Positions 4,671 through 61,059 of a DNA stretch of 64,000 bases are shown piece after piece. Source of the DNA: Streptomyces sp. CBMA29 (lineage in GTDB: Bacteria > Actinomycetota > Actinomycetes > Streptomycetales > Streptomycetaceae); contig NZ_MECL01000271.1 in NCBI RefSeq assembly GCF_014596445.1, positions 62,001 through 126,000 on the forward strand, in the 5' to 3' direction. The notes below the pieces were generated by a model, which did not search any database, had not been told where the DNA came from, and saw only the letters and a list, made by a program, of their open reading frames with translations. How positions within the stretch are numbered: position 1 is the first letter of the stretch; each line of letters starts with the position of its first letter. The position numbers were made by a program, and so were the translations under genes.

Positions 4671-6659
4671 TCAGGTCCCGAGGCGCAGTCCCGGCGCCGC
4701 CTCCTCGATCATGGCCATCCCCAGACGGCTGACCCGAACGGAGAACGGCTGTTCCGCGACCCGCAACCCCGTCAGATGCACGGCTCCCAGCGGCGCGGCG
4801 CTGATCGGCCGAACCGCCACCGTGCCGCCCGGCGCGTCCGGCCGCACCCCGGCGAGCGCCATCAGCAGAAGGACGGCCCCGGCCGCCGCGACCGCCGCCG
4901 GGCGGCACGCCATGGGGTGCGGGCACGGCGCACCGCCCGCAGAACGCTGCTCACCCCCATATATCTCCGGCATCCGCAGCCCGAACTCCGCCGCCGCGTC
5001 CAGCGCCGCGCACACCAGCGCGGACGCCTCCTTCTCCAGCCCCGCCGCGGCGAGTCCGGACACGGCGAGCGCCGTCTCATGGACGCGTACCGCGCCTCCA
5101 CGGTGGCCGAAGGGACTGAAGCCGGGCGTCTTCGCCGACATCGTCCGCAGTCCCCAGCCGGAGTTCATGTCCGGCGCGGCGAACAGCTTGCCGAGCTGTT
5201 CCGTCTGCCCCTTGTCCAACAGCCCGGGAGCGAGCGCCCCTTCGCCGAGCAGCCCCGTATCGAGGAGGTGCGCGAGCGACGAGGACAGCACCGGCACCGG
5301 TCTTCCCCCGGCGGCCAGCGCCAGCGCGGGCCGCCCACCGCCCGGATCCTCCAGCCAGAATCCCCGCCGGAAGCCCGCCCGCAGCGCCGCCGCGTACTCC
5401 CGCCAGCCCTCCGCCCCACTCCGTTCGTGGGCGTCGAGCAGATCCGCGCCCTGCAACGCCGCGCGATGCGCGTACGCCTGTACCTCCGCGCGCGCCGGTC
5501 CGTCCGCCGAGGGGTCCACGACCAGGCCGGAATCCGTCGTCGCCGCCCTCATCCAGCCGAGGCACCGCTCCGCCGCAGGGAGCAACGGCTCCACCTCGCG
5601 GGCCGGAAGCCCCCAGCGCCGGGCTTCGGCAAGCACGGTCACGAAGAGCAGCGTCGCCTCCACGCCCGAGTGCAACGGCGGCAGGTGCGGTCCGGAGTGC
5701 CGCGGCACTCCGGGCACACGGCCCGTCTCGGGGTCCTGCAACCTGGCGAGCATGCGGAGCGTGCCCGCCGCCAGCCGCGTGCCGAACGGCAGCAGCATCC
5801 GCGCCGCCCACAGCGCCTCCGCGGGCGCCATCCCCATCCGCCAGGGCGCCCCGGCCGCGGCGTAGGGGTCGGCGGGATGATCCGGCGCACGGAGCAGCAG
5901 GGCCTGTGCGTCCCCGAGCGAGGCGTCCAGCAGGGCCCCGGCCCTGGAGTCGTCGCCCTCCAACCGCGCGTCGGCCCACATAGGCGGCGGTCTGTCGCCG
6001 GCCGCTGTCCGCGCGCTGCCAGGGGCCGTGGCCGCCGGTGCTGGCTCCACCCGCAACTCGATCGTCCGTGCCGCGCCGGGCGCCACCTCCAGGTCCCATC
6101 TCAGCAGTCCGGACGAGCCCAGCGCCGCGTCAGGCACGGGGGTCGCGGTGACCCGCGCCGATCCCCCGCCGTTCGACCAGCGCAGCCCCGAGCCGCTGAC
6201 GCCAGCCGTCAGATCCGCCCCGGCCTGCCCTGCGGCCACAGCGGAGAGTGCCGCGAGATCCGTGCCGAACGCGATCTCTACGGGCAGCGCCACCCGTACC
6301 GGCCCCGCGTTGGCGAACGTGATCCGCTCACCGCCCTCGGCGGTCCTGACGCGCTCCACCGTGACGACCGGGTCGGGGCCACGGTCGCCGGGTGTCCGGA
6401 CGACCGCGAGGAAACGTGCCCGTCCCGCGTCGAGCAGCCTGGCCTGTACGGTCACCGGTTCGGCTCCCGCGACCGTCAGCTCGCAGCGGCTCAGCAGTCG
6501 CCTGCCGTCACGGTAGAAGCCGTCCAGACCGTCGCCGCGCATCTGCCCGTGCCGTGCGGACACCGCGAGGGCCGGCGCCGCCACGCAGATGACGGCGTCG
6601 TGGACGGGAGCCGGGCCGGGTGCTCCCAAGCGCGGTACGACGACCGTCGGCGTGCTCAC
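4671..6659 (-). CDS. Glycogen debranching enzyme N-terminal-domain protein (glucoamylase-like fold)
   Basis: About 662 residues. The N-terminal 210 residues form a beta-rich domain (HDAVICVAAPALAVS, GLDGFYRDGRRLLSRCEL), typical of the glycogen debranching N-terminal domain that actinobacteria fuse to an alpha/alpha-toroid catalytic domain. The rest, with helices around PWRMGMAPAEALWAARMLLPFG and MNSGWGLRTMS, resembles the GH15/amylo-alpha-glucosidase toroid. The family is presumed to act on alpha-glucans, but no substrate is proven for this branch. The GTG start at 6659 has GGAG upstream; longer frames into 8 kb are antisense to the hydrolase gene. It is divergent from the hydrolase at 6855, with 195 bp between them. 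There is no signal peptide, so it is likely cytosolic. Confidence 0.7.
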   Translation of the reverse strand: MSTPTVVVPRLGAPGPAPVHDAVICVAAPALAVSARHGQMRGDGLDGFYRDGRRLLSRCELTVAGAEPVTVQARLLDAGRARFLAVVRTPGDRGPDPVVTVERVRTAEGGERITFANAGPVRVALPVEIAFGTDLAALSAVAAGQAGADLTAGVSGSGLRWSNGGGSARVTATPVPDAALGSSGLLRWDLEVAPGAARTIELRVEPAPAATAPGSARTAAGDRPPPMWADARLEGDDSRAGALLDASLGDAQALLLRAPDHPADPYAAAGAPWRMGMAPAEALWAARMLLPFGTRLAAGTLRMLARLQDPETGRVPGVPRHSGPHLPPLHSGVEATLLFVTVLAEARRWGLPAREVEPLLPAAERCLGWMRAATTDSGLVVDPSADGPARAEVQAYAHRAALQGADLLDAHERSGAEGWREYAAALRAGFRRGFWLEDPGGGRPALALAAGGRPVPVLSSSLAHLLDTGLLGEGALAPGLLDKGQTEQLGKLFAAPDMNSGWGLRTMSAKTPGFSPFGHRGGAVRVHETALAVSGLAAAGLEKEASALVCAALDAAAEFGLRMPEIYGGEQRSAGGAPCPHPMACRPAAVAAAGAVLLLMALAGVRPDAPGGTVAVRPISAAPLGAVHLTGLRVAEQPFSVRVSRLGMAMIEEAAPGLRLGT

Positions 6660-6854: not shown

Positions 6855-8165
6855 ATGACCGTCCATCGCCAGCCAGGCACCGTCATCACCGACCACACAT
6901 TCGCCGTACCGCTCGACCACGCCTCCCCGGACGGGGAGCGGATCGAGGTCTATGCCCGCGAGGTCGTAGCGGCGGGCCGGGAGCACGAGTCGTTGCCTTG
7001 GCTGCTGTATCTCCAGGGCGGTCCGGGCTTCGGCTCGCCGCGTCCGCTGGGACGGGACGGCTGGCTGCCGCGCGCGCTCGACGACTTCCGGGTGCTGCTG
7101 CTCGACCAGCGCGGCACCGGGCGCTCCACTCCCGCCACCCGCCAGACGCTGCCCACCCGCGGCGACGCCGCCGCCCAAGCGCACTACCTGTCGTACTTCA
7201 GGGCCGACTCGATCGTCCGGGACTGCGAATTCATCAGGCGTCAACTCCTCGGAGAGGACGTGCGCTGGAGTGTGCTGGGGCAGAGTTTCGGCGGCTTCTG
7301 CGCGGTCACCTATCTGTCGTCGGCGCCCGAAGGTCTGCGGGAAGTGTTCGTCACGGGCGGCCTGCCGGGTCTTGATGTGACCGCCGAGGCCGTCTACCGC
7401 GCCGCCTATCCCCGCATCGAGCGCAAGAACATCGCCCACTACACCCGTTACCCCGAAGACGTCGAGACGGTGCGCACCATCGTCCGCCGCCTGCGCGACG
7501 AGGCGGTGGCACTGCCCGGCGGAGGCCGCCTGACACCTGAGGCGTTCCAGTCCCTCGGCCTGATGCTCGGCACCGGCACCGGTTCGCACACCCTGCACTA
7601 TCTGGTGGAGTACGCCTTCGTGACGGGTCCCTCCGGTCCCGTCTTCTCCGACTCCTTTCTCTCCCAGGTCCAGCAGCATCTGTCCTTCGCCGCGAATCCC
7701 CTTTACGCGGTACTGCACGAGTCGGTCTACGGACAGCAGTCCGTCTCTCCTCATGGCACCGGCTGGGCCGCCGAGGCCGTCCGTGGTGAATTCCCGCGGT
7801 TCGACGCGGAGCGCGCGCTGGCAGGGGACGCTCCCGTGCTGTTCACGGGAGAGAGCATCCACCCGTGGATGTTCACGTCCGATCCGGCGCTCGCACCACT
7901 GCGCGAGACGGCGGAGCTTGTCGCGCGCCGCGAGACGTGGCCGGACCTTTATGACACCCGGCAGTTGGCTGCCAATGAGATTCCGGTGGCCGCGGTGATC
8001 TACCACGACGACATGTACGTCGACACCGCCCACTCGCTGGCCACCGCGCGTGCGGTGCGCGGGTTGCGGACCTGGGTCACCGACGAGTTCGAACACGACG
8101 GTCTCCGGGTGAGTGGCGGCCGGGTCCTCGACCGGCTGATCCGACTGGCCCGCGGCGAGTTGTAG
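6855..8165 (+). CDS. Alpha/beta hydrolase of the prolyl aminopeptidase family
   Basis: This 436-residue cytosolic alpha/beta hydrolase has the oxyanion motif GGPGFG (55-60), LLLDQRGTGRS (81-91) and the nucleophile elbow GQSFGG with Ser144. The acid probably lies in YHDDMYVDTAHS and the His in FEHDGLR near the end. DQRGxGxS plus GxSxGG is the hallmark of proline iminopeptidases (peptidase family S33), which remove N-terminal proline from peptides. The length of about 430 residues fits the larger actinobacterial subgroup. The ATG is preceded by AAAAGAGA. The last 89 bp overlap the 3' end of the convergent DUF4192 gene, so the two transcripts are antisense at their ends. Specificity beyond the S33 family is not established. 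Confidence 0.8.
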   Translation: MTVHRQPGTVITDHTFAVPLDHASPDGERIEVYAREVVAAGREHESLPWLLYLQGGPGFGSPRPLGRDGWLPRALDDFRVLLLDQRGTGRSTPATRQTLPTRGDAAAQAHYLSYFRADSIVRDCEFIRRQLLGEDVRWSVLGQSFGGFCAVTYLSSAPEGLREVFVTGGLPGLDVTAEAVYRAAYPRIERKNIAHYTRYPEDVETVRTIVRRLRDEAVALPGGGRLTPEAFQSLGLMLGTGTGSHTLHYLVEYAFVTGPSGPVFSDSFLSQVQQHLSFAANPLYAVLHESVYGQQSVSPHGTGWAAEAVRGEFPRFDAERALAGDAPVLFTGESIHPWMFTSDPALAPLRETAELVARRETWPDLYDTRQLAANEIPVAAVIYHDDMYVDTAHSLATARAVRGLRTWVTDEFEHDGLRVSGGRVLDRLIRLARGEL

Positions 8166-9315
8166 TCGAGGCGATCACGCGCTGCCGCCGCTCCTGCCTC
8201 AGGCTCCGCCGCAACAGCTCAGGGTCCAGACCCTCGTTGACGGAGTGGTGGAGCAACCGCGCGAAGGTGTAGTGGGGTTCGAGGTCCAGCGCGAGGCCGA
8301 GGGCGACCCGCGCCTCGGCCTCGTCCCCCGAGGACCAGGCGACCCAGCCCGCCAGGGCGAGCGGGGCTGCGGCATGGTCCGCGTACGGTCCTGCGCAGCG
8401 CCGGGCGAGCGCCCGCCACAGTCGAAGGGCGGCGTCCGCCTGCGCGGGTTCCATCCATTCGGCGGCGCGGTCGCGTGCCATGCGGTCCTGGAGGCCGAGG
8501 ATGACCGCCGCGGCCTCGTCGTCGGCGAGGAGCCGGTCGTCCCGCCGGTCCGCGCGTGCGGGATCGTCGATCCGCGGCGCGGAGCGGAACTTCTCAAGTG
8601 CCGCACGGGCCAGGGCGAGTGTTCGCTGCCGGACGCTCTCGCAGTCACCGTCGTTGAGCATGCGGGGCACCAATTCGGCGCAGGCCGCGTCGAGGGCGAT
8701 CTCGTGTTCACGATCCCGTGACTCGGACGGCTTCAGCCTGGCTTCCAAGTCCCGCAGCGAACCCGGCGCCGGGATTCCCGCGTAGGCGCTGGCCGCCGCC
8801 ATCGTGGACCGGCCGGGCGGGGCCAGTACCGTTCCCTCCACCGGGGCGGTCTCCTCAGGGCGGCAGTACGACCACCAACGGCCGGCCGAGACGCACAACG
8901 CCTCGATGACGGGCACGTCCAGCGCCCCGCAGGCCACCCGGATCCGCTGGGCGAGCGGCCTCAGCCTTTCCATCACGGCCGACGCGCGCTCCCCCTCACG
9001 CGGGTCCCGGCACAGGAACAGCACGATGGCGTCGGGTCGCCCACCGCGCCGGGTGCTGTTCCTCACCAGACAGTCGGCGAGTTGGTCGGCGGTCTCCGGC
9101 CACTCACGCGGGTCGTCCGGCAGGCCCAGTCGCAGTCGGCCGCCGAAGCGGCCGTGCTCGCCATGCAGTGCGACGAGCACGACGGAATCATTGGGATGAA
9201 AACCCATCAAGTATGGCAATGCGTCCGCCAGGTCGGCGGGCCCGCGCAAAGTGACCTTGACGTCGACCGCTTCGGGTGATGACTCTCCGTGCTGAATCTC
9301 GTTGCTCTGTGTCAT
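8077..9315 (-). CDS. DUF4192 domain protein
   Basis: This 412-residue protein has the DUF4192 pattern in the first 340 residues (VTLRGPADLADALPYLMGFHPNDSVVLVAL near the N-terminus, then repeated helical segments with WRALARRCAGPYADHAAAPLALAGWVAW). DUF4192 proteins are common in actinobacteria and have no known biochemical role. The last 50 residues are basic and low complexity (TTTRRGPVGSAGRGPGRH), a tail seen in many Streptomyces members. There is no signal peptide or membrane segment. It is divergent from recQ across a 133-bp spacer that carries two DnaA boxes, and its 3' end overlaps the convergent hydrolase by 89 bp. Confidence 0.8.
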   Translation of the reverse strand: MTQSNEIQHGESSPEAVDVKVTLRGPADLADALPYLMGFHPNDSVVLVALHGEHGRFGGRLRLGLPDDPREWPETADQLADCLVRNSTRRGGRPDAIVLFLCRDPREGERASAVMERLRPLAQRIRVACGALDVPVIEALCVSAGRWWSYCRPEETAPVEGTVLAPPGRSTMAAASAYAGIPAPGSLRDLEARLKPSESRDREHEIALDAACAELVPRMLNDGDCESVRQRTLALARAALEKFRSAPRIDDPARADRRDDRLLADDEAAAVILGLQDRMARDRAAEWMEPAQADAALRLWRALARRCAGPYADHAAAPLALAGWVAWSSGDEAEARVALGLALDLEPHYTFARLLHHSVNEGLDPELLRRSLRQERRQRVIASTTTRRGPVGSAGRGPGRHSPGDRRVRTRR

Positions 9316-9364: not shown

Positions 9365-9442
9365 CCTGTGGATAACTTTCGGTGGAGTTATCCACAGGCC
9401 ACGGAGCGGGGTTGGCGCGATGTCGGTGCGATCAGGTTGCAT
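9365..9442 (+). promoter_or_regulatory. recQ promoter: paired DnaA boxes plus RecA-NDp-like motif
   Basis: CCTGTGGATAACT (9365-9377) and AGTTATCCACAGG (9386-9398) form a perfect 13-bp inverted repeat with an 8-nt spacer. Each arm contains the exact 9-mer TTATCCACA. Downstream, ATGTCGGTG (9420-9428), 8 nt, and TTGCAT (9437-9442) match the damage promoter pattern TTGTCRGTG-N8-TANNNT at all but two positions. Six nt later is the recQ ATG, which implies a leaderless transcript. The arm nearest the gene has the same orientation and spacing as in the recA and lhr promoters. Confidence 0.7.
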
Positions 9443-9448
9443 GGGGGC

Positions 9449-11629
9449 ATGACCGAGACCCCCACCGCGCTGCGTTCCGCGGCCGACACCGTACTGAGCC
9501 GACTCGTCGGCGCCGAGCCGGGCACCGCACGGCTCCGCGAGGACCAGTGGCTCGCCGTCGAGTCGCTGGTCGCGCACGGCCGCAGAACGCTGGTCGTCCA
9601 GCGCACCGGCTGGGGGAAGTCGGCCGTGTACTTCGTGGCGACAGCGCTGCTGCGCGAGCGGGGCAGCGGCCCGACCGTCATCGTCTCGCCGCTGCTGGCC
9701 CTCATGCGCAACCAGGTGGAAGCCGCCGCGCGCGCGGGCATCCGGGCCCGCACGATCAACTCGTCCAACACCGAGGAGTGGGGCGAGATCGAGGCGGAGG
9801 TCGCGACCGGTGAGGTGGACGTCCTGCTCGTCAGCCCGGAACGCCTCAACAACCCGGACTTCCGCGATCAGGTGCTGCCCAAGCTCGCTGCCACCACCGG
9901 CCTGCTCGTCGTCGACGAGGCGCACTGCATCTCGGACTGGGGTCACGACTTCCGCCCGGACTACCGACGGCTGCGGACGATGCTCGCCGATCTGCCACCC
10001 GGCGTCCCCGTGCTGGCGACCACGGCCACCGCCAACGCCCGCGTGACCGCGGACGTCGCGGAGCAGCTCGGCACCGGCGCCACCGGACCGGATCAGGAAG
10101 GCGCCCTCATCCTGCGCGGGCCGCTGGACCGCGAGAGCCTGTCACTCGGCGTGCTGCGACTGCCCGACGCCGCCCACAGGCTGGCCTGGCTGGCCGACCA
10201 TCTCGAAACACTTCCGGGCTCCGGCATCATCTACACGCTCACCGTGGCGGCGGCCGACGAGATCACCGCGTTCCTGCGGCAGCGCGGCTTCCCCGTCGCC
10301 TCCTACTCAGGGAAGACCGAGAACGCGGACCGGCAGGCGGCCGAGGCGGATCTGCTCGCCAACCGCGTCAAGGCACTCGTGGCGACCTCGGCCCTGGGCA
10401 TGGGCTTCGACAAGCCCGACCTCGGATTCGTCGTGCACGTCGGATCGCCCTCCTCGCCGATCGCCTACTACCAACAGGTGGGCCGCGCCGGACGCGGCGT
10501 CGACCACGCCGAGGTCCTGCTCCTGCCCGGTCGTGAGGACGAGTCGATCTGGCGGTATTTCGCGTCGCTCGCCTTCCCGCCCGAGGAGCAGGTGCGCCGC
10601 ACCCTGGAGGTACTCGCGGCCTCCGACCGCCCGGTGTCCATCCCCGCGCTGGAGACACGCGTCGATCTGCGCCGCTCCCGCCTGGAGATCATGCTGAAGG
10701 TGCTGGACGTCGACGGCGCGGTGCACCGGGTACGCGGCGGCTGGACCGCGACCGGGCAGCCGTGGGCGTACGACACCGAGCGGTACGCGTGGGTGGCCCG
10801 CCAGCGCGACACCGAACAGCAGGCGATGCGGGACTACGCGACCACCACCGGATGCCGGATGGAGTTCCTGCGCCGGCAGTTGGACGACGAGCAGGCCGCG
10901 CCTTGCGGACGCTGCGACAACTGCGCGGGCGCGCGCTTCCCTCTGGAGGTGTCGAACGCCGCGCTGGACGCGGCACGCGCGGCGCTCGGGCGCCCCGGAG
11001 TCGAGCTGGAAGCACGCAAGATGTGGCCGACCGGTCTCGAGGCGATCGGCGTCGCACTCAAGGGGCGTATTCCCGCGACGGAACAGGCCTCCACCGGGCG
11101 GGCGTTGGGCCGCCTGTCCGACATCGGGTGGGGCAACCGGCTGCGGCCCCTGTTCGCCGAAGGAGCCGTCGACCAGCCGGTTTCGTCGGAAGCGGTGAAC
11201 GCCGTGGTCCAGGTGCTCGCCGACTGGGCCAAGGGGCCCGGCGGTTGGGCCAGCGGCGCACCGGATGCCCCCGCACGCCCGGTCGGCGTGGTCGGTGTCG
11301 CCTCTCGCCGCCACGGCGTGCTGGTGGAATCGCTCAGCACCCGTATCGCGGAGGTCGGCAGAATGCCGCTGCTCGGCCGGGTCGAGTACGCGGAGCAGGG
11401 AGACCCAGGCGGCGTACCGCGCAGTAACAGCGCACAGCGGGTACGCGCCCTGCACGGGGCTTTCGTCGTACCGCAGGAGTTGGCCGCGGCCCTTCAGGCG
11501 AATCCCGGTCCCGTGCTGCTCGTCGACGATCTCGCCGACACGGGCTGGACGCTGGCGGTCCTGGCCAGGCAGCTGCGGCGGGCCGGTGCGACGGCTGTCT
11601 TCCCGCTGGTCCTGGCCGTTCAGGGGTGA
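9449..11629 (+). CDS. recQ: ATP-dependent DNA helicase RecQ with C-terminal phosphoribosyltransferase-like domain
   Basis: This 726-residue SF2 helicase unwinds DNA 3' to 5' in recombination and fork repair. Helicase motifs: Walker A QRTGWGKS (51-58), DEAHC near 155, ALGMGFDKPD, and QQVGRAGRG (motif VI). The RecQ zinc site is C469 with CGRCDNC around 485-491. From about residue 560 a second domain ends in LLVDDLADTGWT (690-701), a PRPP-binding signature of the ComF/PRTase fold, so the protein is a helicase-PRTase fusion known in actinobacteria. The RecQ HRDC domain is absent. The ATG at 9449 is favoured over the out-of-frame ATG at 9441 because it lies 6 nt from the -10. The promoter places it in a candidate DNA-damage regulon. 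Confidence 0.9.
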   Translation: MTETPTALRSAADTVLSRLVGAEPGTARLREDQWLAVESLVAHGRRTLVVQRTGWGKSAVYFVATALLRERGSGPTVIVSPLLALMRNQVEAAARAGIRARTINSSNTEEWGEIEAEVATGEVDVLLVSPERLNNPDFRDQVLPKLAATTGLLVVDEAHCISDWGHDFRPDYRRLRTMLADLPPGVPVLATTATANARVTADVAEQLGTGATGPDQEGALILRGPLDRESLSLGVLRLPDAAHRLAWLADHLETLPGSGIIYTLTVAAADEITAFLRQRGFPVASYSGKTENADRQAAEADLLANRVKALVATSALGMGFDKPDLGFVVHVGSPSSPIAYYQQVGRAGRGVDHAEVLLLPGREDESIWRYFASLAFPPEEQVRRTLEVLAASDRPVSIPALETRVDLRRSRLEIMLKVLDVDGAVHRVRGGWTATGQPWAYDTERYAWVARQRDTEQQAMRDYATTTGCRMEFLRRQLDDEQAAPCGRCDNCAGARFPLEVSNAALDAARAALGRPGVELEARKMWPTGLEAIGVALKGRIPATEQASTGRALGRLSDIGWGNRLRPLFAEGAVDQPVSSEAVNAVVQVLADWAKGPGGWASGAPDAPARPVGVVGVASRRHGVLVESLSTRIAEVGRMPLLGRVEYAEQGDPGGVPRSNSAQRVRALHGAFVVPQELAAALQANPGPVLLVDDLADTGWTLAVLARQLRRAGATAVFPLVLAVQG

Positions 11630-25190: not shown

Positions 25191-25213
25191 AGCCTAGAGG
25201 GCCGCACTGACAT
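25191..25213 (-). promoter_or_regulatory. RecA-NDp-type promoter of the DinG-like helicase
   Basis: On the minus strand ATGTCAGTG, 8 nt, TAGGCT matches TTGTCRGTG-N8-TANNNT with one mismatch. The ATG follows 9 nt later. This motif class was described for Streptomyces recA and for PafBC-dependent genes in mycobacteria. The AGTTATCCACAG element found at recA, recQ and lhr is absent here. Confidence 0.7.
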
Positions 25214-28352: not shown

Positions 28353-30119
28353 TCAGGGACGGGGAAGGCGGAGGGGATTGGCGACCGTGCCGTGCACGGC
28401 GGCGTGCGGGCGCTGCGACCGGTCGCGGTAGCCGTCGAGGTGCAGCCGGTTGCGGTTGAGGCAGAGCCGGTCGATGCGGGGCGTAAGGAGGTCGAAGGCG
28501 GCGAAACGTTCCTTGAGTTCGGGAAAGCGCTCCTGATGGCGGATGATCTCGTCCCGCACCAGGGTCCAGAATTCGGCTTCGGGCACGTTCAGTTGTGCTT
28601 CGCACAGGGGCGCGAGATAGCGCAGGACGCCGATGAAGAGTCCCGCGTGGATGAACTGGGTGAGAAATTCGGGCCGTTCGGTGAGCAGTACCCGGCGTAC
28701 GTCGTCCGGCATGCCGTCGTGTTCGGGCAGCGGGTCCGCGGAAACGTTGATGTCGTCGACGAAGTCCTTCACCGCGAGGCGTACCGGGATGTCGTGCTCG
28801 TCGTAGACCACGATGGTGTTCTCGCCGTGCGGGGAGAAAACCGTGCCGTATTGGTAGAGAAAACGCAGCAGGGGCGGCAGCAACGCCGCGAAGAGATGGC
28901 GCAGCCATACGCGGGGCGCGAGACCGGACCGGTCGACGAGTTCGGCGGTGAAAGATCGCCCGTTCGGGTCGGTGTGCAGCAGCGCGGCGAGGGTACGGGC
29001 GTGCTCTCCCGGTTCCAGGTGGGCGGCCAGCGGCTCGCGCCAGATGCAGCCGAGCAGTTCGCGGTACTGGTACGGGACGGTGGGCAGCCGGTTGTACTGC
29101 GGGTGTTCGACGGTGACGGAGGCGACCTCGCCGAGCAGGATCACCCGGGTCTCGTCCCGTAGGAAGGGGTCGGCGTCCCGCAGTTCCCGCACCCAGGCAG
29201 TGACGGCCGGTGCGGCCAGCGTGCGTTCGGTGGGAAGGCCGCGCCAGACGAGGGTGTTGAGGACGGACAGCGGGAGCTTGACGGTGCGCCGGTGCGGGCG
29301 GCTGGTGTTGAGGAAGGTGCGGATCGACTGCTGGGGCAGCCGCAGGTCGTTGTCAGTGGTGAGGTGGAGGATGGATCCGTCGCTGATCGCGGGGGCGAAG
29401 AGCGGCGCGATCACCTGGTCCCACTGCCAGGGGTGGACGGGCAGCAGCAGGTAGTCGGCTGGGTCGCGGTTCCGGTCGGCGATGGTGTGCCGGAAGGTGT
29501 CGAGGATGCCGGGGGTGAGCTCTTCGGCGTAGAGGAGATCGGGGGTGGCGAGCGTGGAGATACCGCGGTACTGGGCGAGGTCGCGGTGTACGGCGATCCA
29601 GGGCAGGCGCTGCGGCTTGCGTGCCTCGGGTGCCCAACGGGCGGCGTCGGCGGCGGAGAAGCCGATACGTCCCTTGTTGGCGACCAGCCAGGGGTGGCCG
29701 GTCTGGTGGCCTTCGAGGTCGGCGTAGTCCAGGTCGGCGAGTTCGGCCGCCGTCAGCGCGGTGCTGTCGAGCCGCACGTCGGCGCGGAGCGTCGCGAGGA
29801 GTTCCTGGATCAGGTGCCCTGTGGTGTCGCCGCTCAGGCCGAGCACGCTCTCGTGGCCGTGGAGCAGGAAGTGCAGCGGGTCACCGGTCGGCGTGATGCT
29901 GTCCGCGTCCACGTACCAACTGCCGTACGCGCCGCGCCGGGCACGGAAGCGGTAGGTCACGTCCGGGCTGAGCCGTAGCCGGTACGCGGTCGGGCCCTCG
30001 GCGGGCTCCGGCTCGGGGACGATCACCTCCTCGTACGCGAACTCGGCGAGCATCTTGGCCAGCAGGCGCCTGGCCGCGTGCTGCCAGACGGCGGAGTCGG
30101 GAGCGGAAGGGGTGAGCAC
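28353..30119 (-). CDS. NRPS-independent siderophore synthetase (IucA/IucC family), last gene of the operon
   Basis: This 588-residue ATP-dependent ligase of the IucA/IucC family joins a carboxylate such as citrate to an amine or alcohol. It has the family blocks EGHQTGHPWLVANKGRIGF (substrate/ATP region), LLPVHPWQWDQVI, KLPLSVLNTLVWRGLP and HGENTIVVYDEHDIPVRLAVKDF, and the C-terminal FerR-like iron-reductase-type segment ends near CLNRNRL. GTG start with AGGAG at good spacing. The size is typical (580-620). It is transcribed after the aminotransferase, the second synthetase and the acetyltransferase, as one operon. The product of this cluster cannot be named from the sequence. Confidence 0.88.
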   Translation of the reverse strand: MLTPSAPDSAVWQHAARRLLAKMLAEFAYEEVIVPEPEPAEGPTAYRLRLSPDVTYRFRARRGAYGSWYVDADSITPTGDPLHFLLHGHESVLGLSGDTTGHLIQELLATLRADVRLDSTALTAAELADLDYADLEGHQTGHPWLVANKGRIGFSAADAARWAPEARKPQRLPWIAVHRDLAQYRGISTLATPDLLYAEELTPGILDTFRHTIADRNRDPADYLLLPVHPWQWDQVIAPLFAPAISDGSILHLTTDNDLRLPQQSIRTFLNTSRPHRRTVKLPLSVLNTLVWRGLPTERTLAAPAVTAWVRELRDADPFLRDETRVILLGEVASVTVEHPQYNRLPTVPYQYRELLGCIWREPLAAHLEPGEHARTLAALLHTDPNGRSFTAELVDRSGLAPRVWLRHLFAALLPPLLRFLYQYGTVFSPHGENTIVVYDEHDIPVRLAVKDFVDDINVSADPLPEHDGMPDDVRRVLLTERPEFLTQFIHAGLFIGVLRYLAPLCEAQLNVPEAEFWTLVRDEIIRHQERFPELKERFAAFDLLTPRIDRLCLNRNRLHLDGYRDRSQRPHAAVHGTVANPLRLPRP

Positions 30120-51632: not shown

Positions 51633-52766
<1,134 letters not shown>

Positions 52767-52809
52767 GGGCTCCACCCGGGATGTCTGGTTCGATCGCTTC
52801 ACGTCCACG

Positions 52810-52866
52810 ACGCTAGCGCCTGGCACTGACAACGCGCCCGGCCGTCGCCCCGTGCTGTGGATAACT
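52810..52866 (-). promoter_or_regulatory. recA LexA-independent damage promoter with upstream DnaA-box element
   Basis: On the minus strand AGTTATCCACAG (52866-52855), 22 nt, TTGTCAGTG (52832-52824), 8 nt, TAGCGT (52815-52810). The last two parts match TTGTCRGTG-N8-TANNNT exactly, the promoter class described for Streptomyces recA and called RecA-NDp in mycobacteria, where PafBC activates it. Transcription would start about 40 nt before the ATG. The AGTTATCCACAG element is the same as at recQ and the lhr-type gene. Confidence 0.85.
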
Positions 52867-52918
52867 CCGGCGGAAACACGCTTCGTCACCACGGAAATCC
52901 ACCCGGCACAAGCCATAA

Positions 52919-52933
52919 GAATGGATGTTCGAA
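52919..52933 (-). promoter_or_regulatory. SOS-like box upstream of recA
   Basis: The minus strand reads TTCGAACATCCATTC. The core GAACATCCATTC is the Streptomyces recA variant of the LexA box GAAC-N4-GTTC, as far as I recall. It lies about 150 bp upstream of the ATG, beyond the NDp promoter. TTGACA further upstream and TATGGC just downstream could form a LexA-controlled promoter, though the spacing is long. Confidence 0.6.
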
Positions 52934-56350: not shown

Positions 56351-56408
56351 AGTTATCCACAGGCTGAGGGGTCGGCCGCCGCGCGGTGTCGGTGCGGCGA
56401 GGCAGGAT
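56351..56408 (+). promoter_or_regulatory. Promoter of the Lhr-type helicase: DnaA-box element plus NDp-like motif
   Basis: AGTTATCCACAG (56351-56362), 23 nt, GTGTCGGTG (56386-56394), 8 nt, CAGGAT (56403-56408), then 7 nt to the ATG. The middle motif has one mismatch to TTGTCRGTG and the -10 one mismatch to TANNNT. The order, orientation and spacing are the same as at recA and recQ. The position implies a leaderless mRNA starting at ATG 56416. Confidence 0.65.
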
Positions 56409-56415
56409 GGATGCC

Positions 56416-59400
56416 ATGTCCAGTCGCAGCAGTCTCGACGCGTTCTCCCCGGCCACCCGCGCGTGGTTCACGGGGGCGTTCAGCGAGCCCACCGACGCCC
56501 AGGCCGGGGCGTGGTCGGCCATCGCCGAGGGCTCCGACGTGCTGGTCGTCGCGCCGACCGGTTCCGGCAAGACGCTGGCGGCCTTCCTCGCCGCCCTGGA
56601 CCGGCTGGCCAGCACCCCGCCGCCCGCCGAGGCCCGCCGCCGGTGCCGGGTGCTGTACGTGTCGCCGCTGAAGGCGCTCGCGGTGGACGTCGAGCGCAAT
56701 CTGCGCAGCCCGCTCGCCGGGCTGCGGCAGGAGTCGGTGCGGCTGGGGCTGCCGGAGCCCGAGGTGCGGGTCGGCATCCGCTCGGGCGACACGCCTCCGG
56801 CGGAGCGGCGGGCGCTGGTGACCAGGCCACCGGACATTTTGATCACCACCCCCGAATCTCTGTTCCTGATGCTCACCTCCGCCGCGCGGGAGGCGCTGAG
56901 CGGGGTCGAGACCGTGATCCTGGACGAGGTGCACGCGGTCGCGGGCACCAAGCGCGGGGCGCATCTGGCGCTCTCCCTGGAGCGGCTGGACGAGTTCCTT
57001 GACCGGCCCGCCCGCCGGATCGGACTGTCGGCGACCGTCCGGCCGGTGGACGAGATCGCCCGCTATCTGTCACCGCGCCGCAAGGTGACGATCGTCCAGC
57101 CGCCGTCGCAGAAGCGGTTCGACCTGTCGGTGGTCGTGCCGGTGGAGGATCTGGGCGAGCTCGGCGGTTCCCCGGTGGCCGAGCACACCGGGCCGGCGGC
57201 GGGTCCCGCCGAGCGGGCCTCGATCTGGCCGCATGTGGAGGAGCGGATCGCCGACCTGGTGCAGGCGCACCGCTCCACGATCGTCTTCGCCAATTCGCGC
57301 CGTCTGGCGGAGCGACTGTGCAATCGGCTCAATGAGATCGCCTACGAGCGGGCCGAGGGCGAGGCGCTGCCCGAGGCGCACTCCCCCGCCGAGATCATGG
57401 CCCAGTCCGGTGCCGCCAAAGGCACTCCGCCAGTGCTGGCCAGGGCCCACCACGGCTCGGTGTCCAAAGAGCAGCGGGCCCTGGTGGAAGAGGACCTGAA
57501 GGCGGGGCGACTGCCCGCGGTCGTCGCGACCTCCAGCCTTGAGCTGGGGATCGACATGGGTGCGGTCGATCTGGTGGTGCAGGTGGAGTCGCCGCCCTCG
57601 GTCGCGTCCGGTCTGCAACGGGTCGGGCGCGCGGGGCACCAGGTGGGAGCGGTCTCCACCGGGGTCGTCTTCCCCAAGTACCGCGGTGATCTGGTGCAGT
57701 CCGCCGTGGTGACCGAGCGGATGCGGCAGGGCGCGATCGAGTCGCTGCGGGTGCCCGCGAACCCGCTGGACGTGCTGGCCCAGCAGATCGTGGCGATGAC
57801 CGCGCTCGACACCTGGGACGTGGACGACCTGCTGGCCCTGGTGCGGCGTGCGGCGCCGTTCTCCGCGCTGCCCCACTCCGCCTACATCGCGGTTCTCGAC
57901 ATGCTGGCCGGGCGCTACCCCTCGGACGCCTTCGCCGAACTGCGACCGCGCCTGGTGTGGGACCGGGTGGCGAACACGGTGACCGGGCGCCCCGGCACCC
58001 AGCGGCTCGCCGTCACTTCCGGCGGCACGATCCCCGACCGCGGGCTGTTCGGGGTGTTCCTGGCGGGCTCCGACCCGAAGAAGGGCGGCGGCCGGGTCGG
58101 GGAGCTGGACGAGGAGATGGTGTACGAGTCCCGGGTCGGGGACGTCTTCACCCTGGGCACCACCTCGTGGCGGATCGAGGACATCACCCGCGACCGGGTC
58201 CTGGTCTCGCCCGCGCCGGGAGTGCCGGGACGGCTGCCGTTCTGGAAGGGCGACCAACTCGGCCGCCCGCTCGAACTCGGCCGTGCGCTGGGCGCGTTCC
58301 TGCGCGAGGTGGGCGCGCTGGCACCGGAGCGGGCCAGGGAGCGGCTGACGGCGGCCGGTCTCGACACCTGGGCGTCGGACAACGTGCTGTCGTACCTGGC
58401 CGAGCAGCGGCAGGCGTGCGGTCATGTGCCGGACGACCGGACGATCGTGGTCGAGCGGTTCCGCGACGAGTTGGGCGACTGGCGGGTCGTCATCCACTCC
58501 CCCTTCGGCGCGCAGGTGCACGCGCCGTGGGCGCTGGCGCTCGGCGCGCGGCTCCAGGAGCGCTACGGCCTGGACGCCCAGGCGATGCACGCCGACGACG
58601 GGATCGTGCTGCGGCTGCCGGACGCCGACTTGATGGGCCTGGATCTGCTGGACTCCGATCCGGTGCTGCGCGGCGCGGAGTTCGACCCCGAGCAGTCGCC
58701 GGTGGGCGCGGCGGATGTCGCCTTCGACAAGGGCGAGGTCGAACAGCTCGTCACCGATCAGGTGGGCGGCTCGGCCCTGTTCGCCTCCCGGTTCCGCGAG
58801 TGCGCCGCCCGCGCCCTGCTGTTGCCGCGCCGCGACCCCGGAAAGCGCACCCCGTTGTGGCAGCAGCGCCAGCGTGCCTCGCAATTGCTCCAGGTCGCCT
58901 CGGAGTTCGGCTCCTTCCCGATCGTCCTTGAGGCGGTCCGCGAATGCCTTCAGGACGTCTTCGACGTGCCGGGCCTGGTGGAGCTGATGGGCGACATCGA
59001 GGCCCGCAGGGTGCGGCTGGTCGAGGTGACCACGCCCGAGCCGTCGCCCTTCGCCCGCTCGTTGCTGTTCGGCTATGTGGCGCAGTTCCTCTACGAGGGT
59101 GACTCGCCGCTGGCTGAGCGGCGGGCCGCGGCGCTGTCGCTGGACTCGCGGCTGCTGGCGGAACTGCTGGGGCAGGCGGAGCTGCGCGAGTTGCTGGACG
59201 CCGACGTCCTGGCCGAGCTGGACACCGAATTGCAGTGGCTGACCGAGGACCGGCGGGTGAAGAGCTCCGAGGGGGTCGCGGATCTGCTGCGGGTGCTCGG
59301 GCCACTGACCGGCGCGGAGTTGGCCGCGCGGGGCGCGGAGCCGGTGTGGGCGGAGGAGTTGGAGACGGCCAGGCGCGCGATCCGGGTGCGGATCGCCGGG

Positions 59401-61059
59401 GCGGAGCACTGGGCGGCGGTCGAGGACGCGGGGCGGTTGCGGGACGCGCTCGGTACGGCGCTGCCGGTGGGCGTGCCGGTGGCGTTCACCGAGCCGGTGA
59501 AGGACCCGCTGGGGGATCTGCTCGCCCGGTACGCGCGCACGCACGGTCCATTCACGACCAAGGAGGCGGCCGGGAGATTCGGCCTGGGCGCTGCGGTCGC
59601 GGACGGGACGCTGCAACGGCTGACGGCGGCGGGCCGTACGGTGCAGGGCGAATTCCGGCCGGGCGGCGCGGGCCAGGAGTGGTGCGACGCGACGGTGCTG
59701 CGGCGGTTGCGGCGCCGCTCGCTGGCGGCGCTGCGGCAGGAGTTGGAGCCCGTGCCGCCCGCCACACTCGGCGTCTTCCTCCCGCAGTGGCAGCACGTGG
59801 GCACGCACAGCCTGCGTGGTCCCGACGGGCTGGTGCGGGCCGTGGAGCAGTTGCAGGGCGCGTCCGTGCCCGCGTCGGCGCTGGAGAAGCTGGTGCTGCC
59901 GTCCCGGGTGACGGGCTACAACCCGGCGATGCTGGACGAGTTGACGGCCTCCGGCGAGATCCTGTGGGCGGGGGCGGGCGCGCTGCCGGGCAAGGACGGC
60001 TGGGTATCGCTCTACCTCGCCGACAGCGCCCCTCTGCTGCTGCCCGCCCCGCAGCCGCTGGAGCTGTCCCCGCTGCACGAAGCGGTGCTGGCCGCGCTGT
60101 CCGGCGGCTACGGTCTCTTCTTCCGGCAGATCGCCGAGCAGGTCCGGGCGGCGGGCCAGGACACCACCGATCCCCAACTGGCCGACGCCGTCTGGGACCT
60201 GGCCTGGTCGGGACGGCTCACCAACGACACGCTGTCGCCGCTCAGGGCGCTCCTCGGCTCGGGACGTACCGCGGGTTCCACCGCGCACCGGGCGCCGCGG
60301 TCCGTGCCGCGCGGCCGGTACAGCTCGCTGGCGACTCGCGCCCCGCGTGCGACGGCGTCCCGCTCCGGTCCGCCGACCACCGCGGGCCGCTGGTCCCTCG
60401 TACCGTCCGCCGAACCCGACCCCACGCTGCGGGCGCACGCCCTCACGCACACGCTGCTCGACCGGCACGGCGTGGTCACCCGGGGCGCCGTGGCCGCCGA
60501 GGGCGTCGCGGGCGGCTTCTCCGCGGCCTACCGGGTGCTCGCGGCCTTCGAGGAGACCGGGCAGGCCCGGCGCGGCTACGTGGTGGAGGGACTGGGAGCG
60601 GCACAATTCGCCATGGACGGCGCCGTCGACCGGCTGCGCGCCCTGAGCACGGCGCGCGACCGCGAGGAGGAGCACGCCGCCCGCGCCCGTACGGTGGTGC
60701 TCGCCGCCGCCGACCCCGCGAACGCCTATGGCGCGGCCCTCCCCTGGCCCGAGCAGCCTGCGGGCGTCACCCACAAACCGGGCCGCAAAGCCGGCGCCTT
60801 GGTCGTGCTCATCGACGGAGAGCCCGCCCTCTACGTCGAGCGCGGCGGCAAGACGCTGCTGGCGTGGCCCGACGACGAGATACGTCTCCAGGCCGCCGCG
60901 GACGCGCTGGCGCTGGCCGTCCGCGAGGGCGCGCTGGGCCGCCTCACGGTGGAGCGAACCAATGGTGAGTCGGCCCTCACCTCGCCCCTCGGCCGTGCTC
61001 TGGAAGCCGCGGGCTTCCACGCCACTCCGCGCGGTCTGCGCCTGCGGGACGGCGGATAG
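56416..61059 (+). CDS. lhr: Lhr-type large ATP-dependent DNA helicase
   Basis: This 1547-residue SF2 helicase has Walker A APTGSGKT (46-53), SPLKALAVD, TTPESLFLML, DEVHAV near 170, SATVRP, TSSLELGIDMG and QRVGRAGHQVG (motif VI). The Lhr-core winged helix and DUF1998-like beta domain follow, and the long C-terminal extension (about 880-1547) has repeated winged-helix segments, as in actinobacterial Lhr. Mycobacterial Lhr is a damage-inducible 3' to 5' translocase. The ATG at 56416 is preferred to ATG 56407 because it is the predicted transcription start. In S. coelicolor a Fpg/Nei glycosylase gene follows, as I recall, but here an ankyrin gene does. Confidence 0.9.
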   Translation: MSSRSSLDAFSPATRAWFTGAFSEPTDAQAGAWSAIAEGSDVLVVAPTGSGKTLAAFLAALDRLASTPPPAEARRRCRVLYVSPLKALAVDVERNLRSPLAGLRQESVRLGLPEPEVRVGIRSGDTPPAERRALVTRPPDILITTPESLFLMLTSAAREALSGVETVILDEVHAVAGTKRGAHLALSLERLDEFLDRPARRIGLSATVRPVDEIARYLSPRRKVTIVQPPSQKRFDLSVVVPVEDLGELGGSPVAEHTGPAAGPAERASIWPHVEERIADLVQAHRSTIVFANSRRLAERLCNRLNEIAYERAEGEALPEAHSPAEIMAQSGAAKGTPPVLARAHHGSVSKEQRALVEEDLKAGRLPAVVATSSLELGIDMGAVDLVVQVESPPSVASGLQRVGRAGHQVGAVSTGVVFPKYRGDLVQSAVVTERMRQGAIESLRVPANPLDVLAQQIVAMTALDTWDVDDLLALVRRAAPFSALPHSAYIAVLDMLAGRYPSDAFAELRPRLVWDRVANTVTGRPGTQRLAVTSGGTIPDRGLFGVFLAGSDPKKGGGRVGELDEEMVYESRVGDVFTLGTTSWRIEDITRDRVLVSPAPGVPGRLPFWKGDQLGRPLELGRALGAFLREVGALAPERARERLTAAGLDTWASDNVLSYLAEQRQACGHVPDDRTIVVERFRDELGDWRVVIHSPFGAQVHAPWALALGARLQERYGLDAQAMHADDGIVLRLPDADLMGLDLLDSDPVLRGAEFDPEQSPVGAADVAFDKGEVEQLVTDQVGGSALFASRFRECAARALLLPRRDPGKRTPLWQQRQRASQLLQVASEFGSFPIVLEAVRECLQDVFDVPGLVELMGDIEARRVRLVEVTTPEPSPFARSLLFGYVAQFLYEGDSPLAERRAAALSLDSRLLAELLGQAELRELLDADVLAELDTELQWLTEDRRVKSSEGVADLLRVLGPLTGAELAARGAEPVWAEELETARRAIRVRIAGAEHWAAVEDAGRLRDALGTALPVGVPVAFTEPVKDPLGDLLARYARTHGPFTTKEAAGRFGLGAAVADGTLQRLTAAGRTVQGEFRPGGAGQEWCDATVLRRLRRRSLAALRQELEPVPPATLGVFLPQWQHVGTHSLRGPDGLVRAVEQLQGASVPASALEKLVLPSRVTGYNPAMLDELTASGEILWAGAGALPGKDGWVSLYLADSAPLLLPAPQPLELSPLHEAVLAALSGGYGLFFRQIAEQVRAAGQDTTDPQLADAVWDLAWSGRLTNDTLSPLRALLGSGRTAGSTAHRAPRSVPRGRYSSLATRAPRATASRSGPPTTAGRWSLVPSAEPDPTLRAHALTHTLLDRHGVVTRGAVAAEGVAGGFSAAYRVLAAFEETGQARRGYVVEGLGAAQFAMDGAVDRLRALSTARDREEEHAARARTVVLAAADPANAYGAALPWPEQPAGVTHKPGRKAGALVVLIDGEPALYVERGGKTLLAWPDDEIRLQAAADALALAVREGALGRLTVERTNGESALTSPLGRALEAAGFHATPRGLRLRDGG

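Follow-up and report, generated by a model that had tools for sequence, protein, structure and literature searches.

In E. coli, B. subtilis and Caulobacter, DnaA is reported to activate genes of its regulons by stabilising RNA polymerase (excerpts of PMC8203912 and PMC11317965), and DnaA boxes stand upstream of replication and repair genes, as they do in the bacterium analysed here. Unlike in those regulons, the targets described below include com genes, and the boxes are phased single copies or 18-bp doublets. At the RecA-NDp (PafBC) promoter of recA, TGTCRGTG is followed by 8 nt and a −10 element, and a −26 motif contacted by PafB replaces the −35 element (PMC11804915, in part); the recA promoter reported here has the same arrangement, and only here is there an extra upstream box. 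For S. venezuelae, PMC9380542 reports that the M. smegmatis PafBC motif did not emerge as conserved from a first search; in contrast to that report, the genome that we analysed is rich in strict NDp promoters of the form TGTCRGTG-N8-TANNNT (32 versus 0 for controls).

Little is known about the control of competence in Actinomycetota. A paper of 2026 (PMC12849477, in part) describes the competence cascade of Micrococcus luteus as unidentified, the accessible portions of the M. luteus competence papers (PMC8467076, PMC12849477) name no operator, and in Rhodoluna lacicola com and tad genes are dark-induced, with comEC, dprA and tad expressed jointly (excerpt of PMC8591293). As far as those excerpts go, these bacteria share with the genes considered here comEA/EC, an RcpC/CpaB-type gene with an HTH_17 neighbour, and an FtsK/SpoIIIE-like gene; they differ in that an operator is proposed here, and some families, such as f18 (see below), lack the box. 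The word competence is absent from a DnaA review (PMC8203912). In the open-licence literature, the literal 11-mer introduced below and two variants of it led to no title on actinobacterial promoters among the matches listed, and searches on DnaA and Streptomyces, on competence and actinobacteria, and on PafBC and Streptomyces gave no title or abstract opening that describes such an operator.

We analysed a 64,000-nucleotide stretch of DNA from Streptomyces sp. CBMA29 (the window), in which an initial annotation had reported an identical 12-mer, AGTTATCCACAG, before recQ, lhr and recA and had judged it too frequent for chance. Both observations were borne out: the window holds exactly four copies against 0.01 expected, with none added at one mismatch (Table 1). 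The reported spacing was likewise reproduced, the 12-mer beginning 34 bp (recQ, recA) or 35 bp (lhr) before the start of a 9-mer resembling the NDp damage motif, which is followed each time by 8 nt and a hexamer (TTGCAT, TAGCGT and CAGGAT for recQ, recA and lhr, respectively). The hexamer is a TAnnnT −10 element at recA alone, where the complete RecA-NDp form TGTCRGTG-N8-TAnnnT is present; at recQ and lhr the motif is present and the hexamers are weaker candidate −10 elements that are not TAnnnT. Two copies had been assigned to recQ; the minus-strand copy is instead directed at a divergent DUF4192 gene, so that this divergent pair has one box each.

Table 1. Positions in the window of the four boxes, the associated promoter elements and the genes behind them
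Feature	Position	Strand	Remark
DUF4192 gene	8077..9315	−	ORF; PF13830, E 1.7e-56
Box AGTTATCCACAG of divergent DUF4192 gene	9366..9377	−	exact match
Box AGTTATCCACAG of recQ	9386..9397	+	exact match
NDp-like 9-mer ATGTCGGTG of recQ	9420..9428	+	
Candidate −10 TTGCAT of recQ, not TAnnnT	9437..9442	+	7 nt before ATG at 9449
recQ-family helicase gene	9449..11629	+	ORF 9368-11629; start read by eye
recA	51633..52766	−	377 aa translation; longest ORF 51633-52916; named by eye
−10 TAGCGT of recA	52810..52815	−	
NDp motif TTGTCAGTG of recA	52824..52832	−	
Box AGTTATCCACAG of recA	52855..52866	−	exact match
Box AGTTATCCACAG of lhr	56351..56362	+	exact match
NDp-like 9-mer GTGTCGGTG of lhr	56386..56394	+	
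Candidate −10 CAGGAT of lhr, not TAnnnT	56403..56408	+	
Lhr-type helicase gene	56416..61059	+	ORF 56386-61059; start by eye

The partial RecQ protein scored 218.9 bits against TIGR00614 (cut-off 219.8), and the first 498 residues of the Lhr-type helicase matched PRK09751 with an E value of 4.9e-187. The recQ transcript would be leaderless. The recQ box recurs upstream of recQ in genome G001 and in two GTDB loci (L192 and L233), the DUF4192 box in G001 and G003, and the lhr box in G001, G003 and a locus of Actinacidiphila rubida (L232), which has the same recA and lhr composites; on that resemblance the window probably belongs to the genus Actinacidiphila. The 9-mer by itself is common in the window (37 matches at one mismatch or fewer, 17 expected), and NDp-type sites that lack a box were seen at 25191–25212 (−; TGTCAGTG-N8-TAGGCT) and 29351–29372 (+; TGTCAGTG-N8-GAGGAT). 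The exact LexA operator GAAC-N4-GTTC is absent from the recA, recQ and lhr promoters; the window has it twice, at 4743 and, within recA, at 52704. Upstream of recA, at 52919–52930 (−), is GAACATCCATTC, a near match to the LexA box.

Genome-wide, the 8.48 Mb draft carries 32 copies of the 11-mer GTTATCCACAG, compared with one of the reversed control, and all 35 genomes of the genus carry 10–39 copies (controls, 0–3); a chance origin of the boxes is ruled out by these counts together with those of the window. Across the phylum, 165 of 296 sampled genomes have a match, mostly in few copies. Enrichment is clear in the window's family and some others, and in family f18 it stems from oriC.

The initial annotation had read the box as an add-on to the PafBC/NDp promoter through which replication stress would act on damage repair genes. 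In keeping with that reading, the composite is present at recA, recQ and lhr and recurs, among the matches listed, before unrelated genes at set gaps, and NDp is itself a strong motif in this genome. However, a box followed by TGTCRGTG was found at only four places in the genome (control, 0), three in the window and a fourth on contig C204 at a different spacing; 28 of the 32 boxes are without TGTCRGTG in the scanned range, and an exact box stands at just one of the 32 strict NDp promoters, that of recA. A general coupling of box and NDp is thereby ruled out, and the box is moreover phased to −10 elements that have no NDp (see below). We therefore give the add-on explanation very little credence: the NDp motif is an optional partner of the box. 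What survives of the proposed composite promoter is its oriented, near-fixed architecture with a DnaA-type box as the upstream half; the coupling to the damage motif as such does not. In the genus, the boxes are oriented toward genes.

Beyond this genome, the spacing of the composite is kept at recA and, among the matches listed, recurs before unrelated actinobacterial genes. A GTDB scan for a box followed by TGTCRGTG at gaps of 18–32 nt matched at least 120 stretches, of which a sample of 80 loci supplied 81 sites; among the matches listed, the gap was 21–24 in 72 of 81 sites, 31–32 in seven, and 18 and 29 in one each. By alignment 58 of these 81 listed sites are recA, all with gaps of 21–24, and there the spacer between box and NDp varies in sequence while its length is nearly constant. 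The non-recA sites were assembled by eye into 17 groups, with homologues counted once and with recA, a cut recA (L234) and loci of other phyla (L217, L219, L261) excluded. Among the matches listed, 11 of the 17 groups have gaps of 21–23 (p = 7.6e-5) and four have gaps of 31–32, one turn further (p = 4.5e-6 for both gap classes jointly). The chosen start codon lies 49–50 or 59–60 nt after the box in 9 of 23 non-recA rows, again among the matches listed, which is what transcripts with a short leader or none would produce. In Saccharothrix a composite box stands before a PolA-type exonuclease gene, and in Microbacteriaceae and related groups such boxes stand before DUF222 genes; at the latter (L204, L215, L242, L258) the gaps are 21–22 or 31–32 and so differ by one helical turn.

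The genes behind the box or a doublet of it in the window's own genome are only in part the repair genes of the initial annotation: many serve DNA uptake and recombination and not general damage repair, and some, such as paa operons, serve neither. The recombination genes are recA, recQ, lhr, RecD2 (TIGR01448, above cut-off) and an SSB (ssbB), and the uptake genes are comF, yraN-comM-dprA, comEA-comEC and an RcpC/CpaB-like gene. ComF was identified by TIGR00201 on the orthologue from G003 (E 4e-11, below cut-off), and the RcpC/CpaB-like gene, whose match is also below cut-off (E 4e-4), is followed in G000 by mscL and not by a tad operon. Further boxes precede genes for DUF4192, DUF6397, EccC/FtsK-like, WHH nuclease, TIGR04222 and M23 peptidase proteins. 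Two paa operons, a lysyl-tRNA synthetase-like gene and a peptidase gene do not fit the set, and some boxes lie within genes or in box clusters. The boxes before the phenylacetate-degradation (paa) operons of this genome are at L001 and L002, and L067 (G003) and L110 (G057) resemble the same paa promoter. Names given by eye, with no family hit, are recA, paa, LysK-like, M55-like, MarR/GNAT-like, DinF-like, crgA, pheA and serS. TadZ was rejected as the identity of the P-loop gene at L166 and is a lead only, since its Pfam matches are weak (E 6e-5). One operator is thus common to an uptake channel, a DNA receptor, DprA, SSB and RecA, the combination by which a competence regulon would be recognised.

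Conservation of these associations was followed in 30 genomes, of which 29 have comEA and all have yraN. Within the window's family (f1, inferred to be Streptomycetaceae), 10 of 12 genomes have a box with at most one mismatch before comEA (11 at two mismatches; none in G227), and 10 of 12 have one before yraN (all 12 at two mismatches). Outside the family, the same threshold gave 6 of 17 for comEA (G084, G269, G281, G238, G173, G073) and 5 of 18 for yraN (G084, G269, G281, G238, G073), and G238 carries GTCGTCCACAG twice before each gene; exact boxes precede comEA in G084 and G269, yraN in G269 and dnaB in G084, G269 and G291. At recA, GTTNTCCACAG was found 23–24 nt before TGTCAGTG at 16 of 17 5′ ends within the family (the miss being G205), with A as its third base in 11, G in four and T in one. 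Of 12 recA genes from outside, two have a decayed GCTCTCCACA at gap 22 (G173, G302), two have a box without NDp (G042, G073), and in the remaining eight no NDp motif is preceded by a box. The comF box is present in 16 of 16 cases within the family and 17 of 23 overall, and the RcpC/CpaB box in 16 of 16 within the family; a query for the latter gene found no match in eight other genomes, none of them of f1. Six f18 genomes showed no box before comEA or yraN (comEA in six of six, yraN in two of six by a narrower pattern only), and f18 was set aside as a further example: its copies of the nonamer TTATCCACA are oriC boxes, 15–18 per dnaA locus in three genomes. We are confident that this is a genuine, conserved element and that in the window's family it belongs to genes for DNA uptake and recombination, and the pattern points to what may be a shared, apparently undescribed switch for these processes in Streptomyces-like bacteria.

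The promoter form of the box can be written as G-TT[A>G>T,C]TCCACA-[G>A]. In the intervals before comEA, yraN and recA of the family, 42 of 42 boxes are directed at the gene, and box density is 23–127 times that in the remainder of those loci. We then located TAnnnT hexamers within 90 nt after 77 distinct sites (32 in the window's own genome, G000; 28 in G003; 17 in G001, covered in part), a sample in which orthologous promoters are counted repeatedly. Offsets of 29 (nine cases) and 37–39 (ten) predominated, with two cases at 27, both in the crgA box cluster, and one each at 12, 42 and 44. After the 32 boxes of G000 alone, 9 of the 11 such hexamers are at 29 or 37–39, as in none of 20000 shuffles; these offsets were selected after inspection, and a choice-free statistic (four at one offset) gave p = 0.0016. 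In this genus the box lies upstream of the −10 element, separated from it by either 29 or about 37–40 nt, two distances in helical phase. No TAnnnT was found within 90 nt after the comEA, RcpC/CpaB or L166 doublets of G000, and in genomes of other genera the offsets that follow exact 11-mers are scattered. The variant TTGTCCACA was rejected as an equally phased site in G000: of 17 sites in 15 regions, three have a TAnnnT within the following 90 nt, at 39, 59 and 66.

Two distances that differ by about one helical turn are what an activator placed next to RNA polymerase would show. The boxes could instead be titration sites that keep DnaA from oriC, their position before repair and uptake genes being secondary, and clusters of boxes in mixed orientation do recur near crgA, between pheA and serS, and near dinF/dnaB in G000, G003 and G057. 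These conserved clusters (L014–L016, L011–L012 and L007; L068, L071, L069, L106, L108 and L109) may serve such a purpose. Titration, however, requires no orientation, no helical phasing and no kept gap to NDp, and as an account of the promoter boxes we regard it as highly improbable.

At the uptake operons the promoter is more elaborate. In the family, a second box with at most two mismatches follows 18 bp on at 13 of 16 RcpC/CpaB loci and 7 of 12 comEA loci, and many comEA and yraN promoters carry the word CAAGATC after the second box. A palindrome, CACYC-N4-GRGTG (scored at 8 or more of 10 positions, about one or fewer being expected per gene set), starts exactly 19 nt before the first box at 10 of 11 comEA, 8 of 12 yraN and 12 of 16 RcpC/CpaB loci (L306, L363, L456 and orthologues), and palindrome and box can be joined as CACYC-N4-GRGTG-N5-GTTNTCCACA. 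It was scored at 2 of 16 recA and 1 of 15 comF loci, at another offset; G227 comEA, G205 recA and G000 comF were left out of this comparison. The uptake operons therefore have an input that recA and comF do not. The palindrome, like the motif, its orientation, phasing, conservation and gene set, can be read from the DNA itself.

As to the protein that reads the box, the E. coli oriC region contains two exact copies of the 11-mer, one within the annotated oriC and one 5 bp beyond it, which we take to be R1 and R4, and 32 of the 39 copies of the consensus DnaA nonamer TTATCCACA in G000 sit inside the 11-mer. Since the E. coli oriC region has the identical word, DnaA is the likeliest binder. Its recognition signature, GRDHTTV, agrees with that of E. 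coli, and the Bac_DnaA_C domain was matched once per genome in 30 of 30 genomes, by DnaA; a DnaA paralogue as the binder is thus rejected, with no second DnaA_C protein in these genomes.

A dedicated transcription factor other than DnaA might nevertheless read a box that resembles a strong DnaA box, with a partner at the palindrome of the uptake operons. Such a factor would account for the difference between promoter and oriC boxes of the same genomes: in the family, the third base is G or C in 81 of 83 oriC boxes (A in one) and A in 23 of 42 promoter boxes (Fisher p = 1e-12), and a 5′ G flanks 42 of 42 promoter boxes versus 25 of 83 oriC boxes (Fisher p = 8e-16), so the base preference at promoters is not that of oriC. 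The doublet period of 18 and the palindrome at −19 are also unlike E. coli DnaA pairs, which are preferentially 2–3 bp apart (PMC11317965, in part), whereas the com doublets are 8–10 bp apart. Against a separate factor stand the identity of the 11-mer with two E. coli oriC-region boxes, the lack of a second DnaA_C protein or any other candidate found, and the nature of position 3, which is tolerant here and is the tolerant position at which DnaA boxes of several species differ (excerpt of PMC4285127); the published S. coelicolor DnaA box, TTGTCCACA, departs from the E. coli box at that position (same excerpt). The f18 oriC boxes are TTATCCACA (L365–L367) and those of f1 have G or C at position 3, though the DnaA signature is common to both. 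On balance a dedicated factor seems to us rather unlikely, and DnaA acting as an activator at the box is the best single explanation and probably the correct one. In our reading, promoters would carry single strong boxes and oriC many weaker, cooperative ones; in E. coli, only 13 of 32 single consensus boxes are within DnaA-bound regions, according to the available part of PMC11317965.

We accordingly propose that GTTATCCACAG is an activator-type operator that marks an uptake and recombination gene set in the window's family and parts of that set in several other actinobacterial families. DnaA would most likely bind the box and contact RNA polymerase. The level of free active DnaA, and hence the replication state, would then tune recA, recQ, lhr, recD2, ssbB, comF, yraN-comM-dprA and comEA-comEC. 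At recA (and at recQ and lhr, with their weak −10 elements), the same polymerase may receive a PafBC-type damage input through NDp, and at the uptake operons the second box 18 bp on and the palindrome would serve a further factor. We infer activation, DnaA as the binder, replication state as the signal, a role in natural transformation and competence itself from these sequence patterns. The fullest form of the proposal, held tentatively and at slightly less than even confidence, is that in Streptomyces and several other actinobacterial families DnaA itself is the master activator of genes for uptake and recombination. Uptake of foreign DNA would then be switched on when replication stalls or becomes unbalanced, with a second, palindrome-binding regulator gating the uptake operons alone.

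An operator common to comEA-comEC, dprA, comM, comF, ssbB and recA offers a bait for the regulator and a reporter for inducing conditions, and with it a means of asking whether DNA uptake occurs in Streptomyces. Should the factor be DnaA, a single protein would join replication control and DNA uptake.
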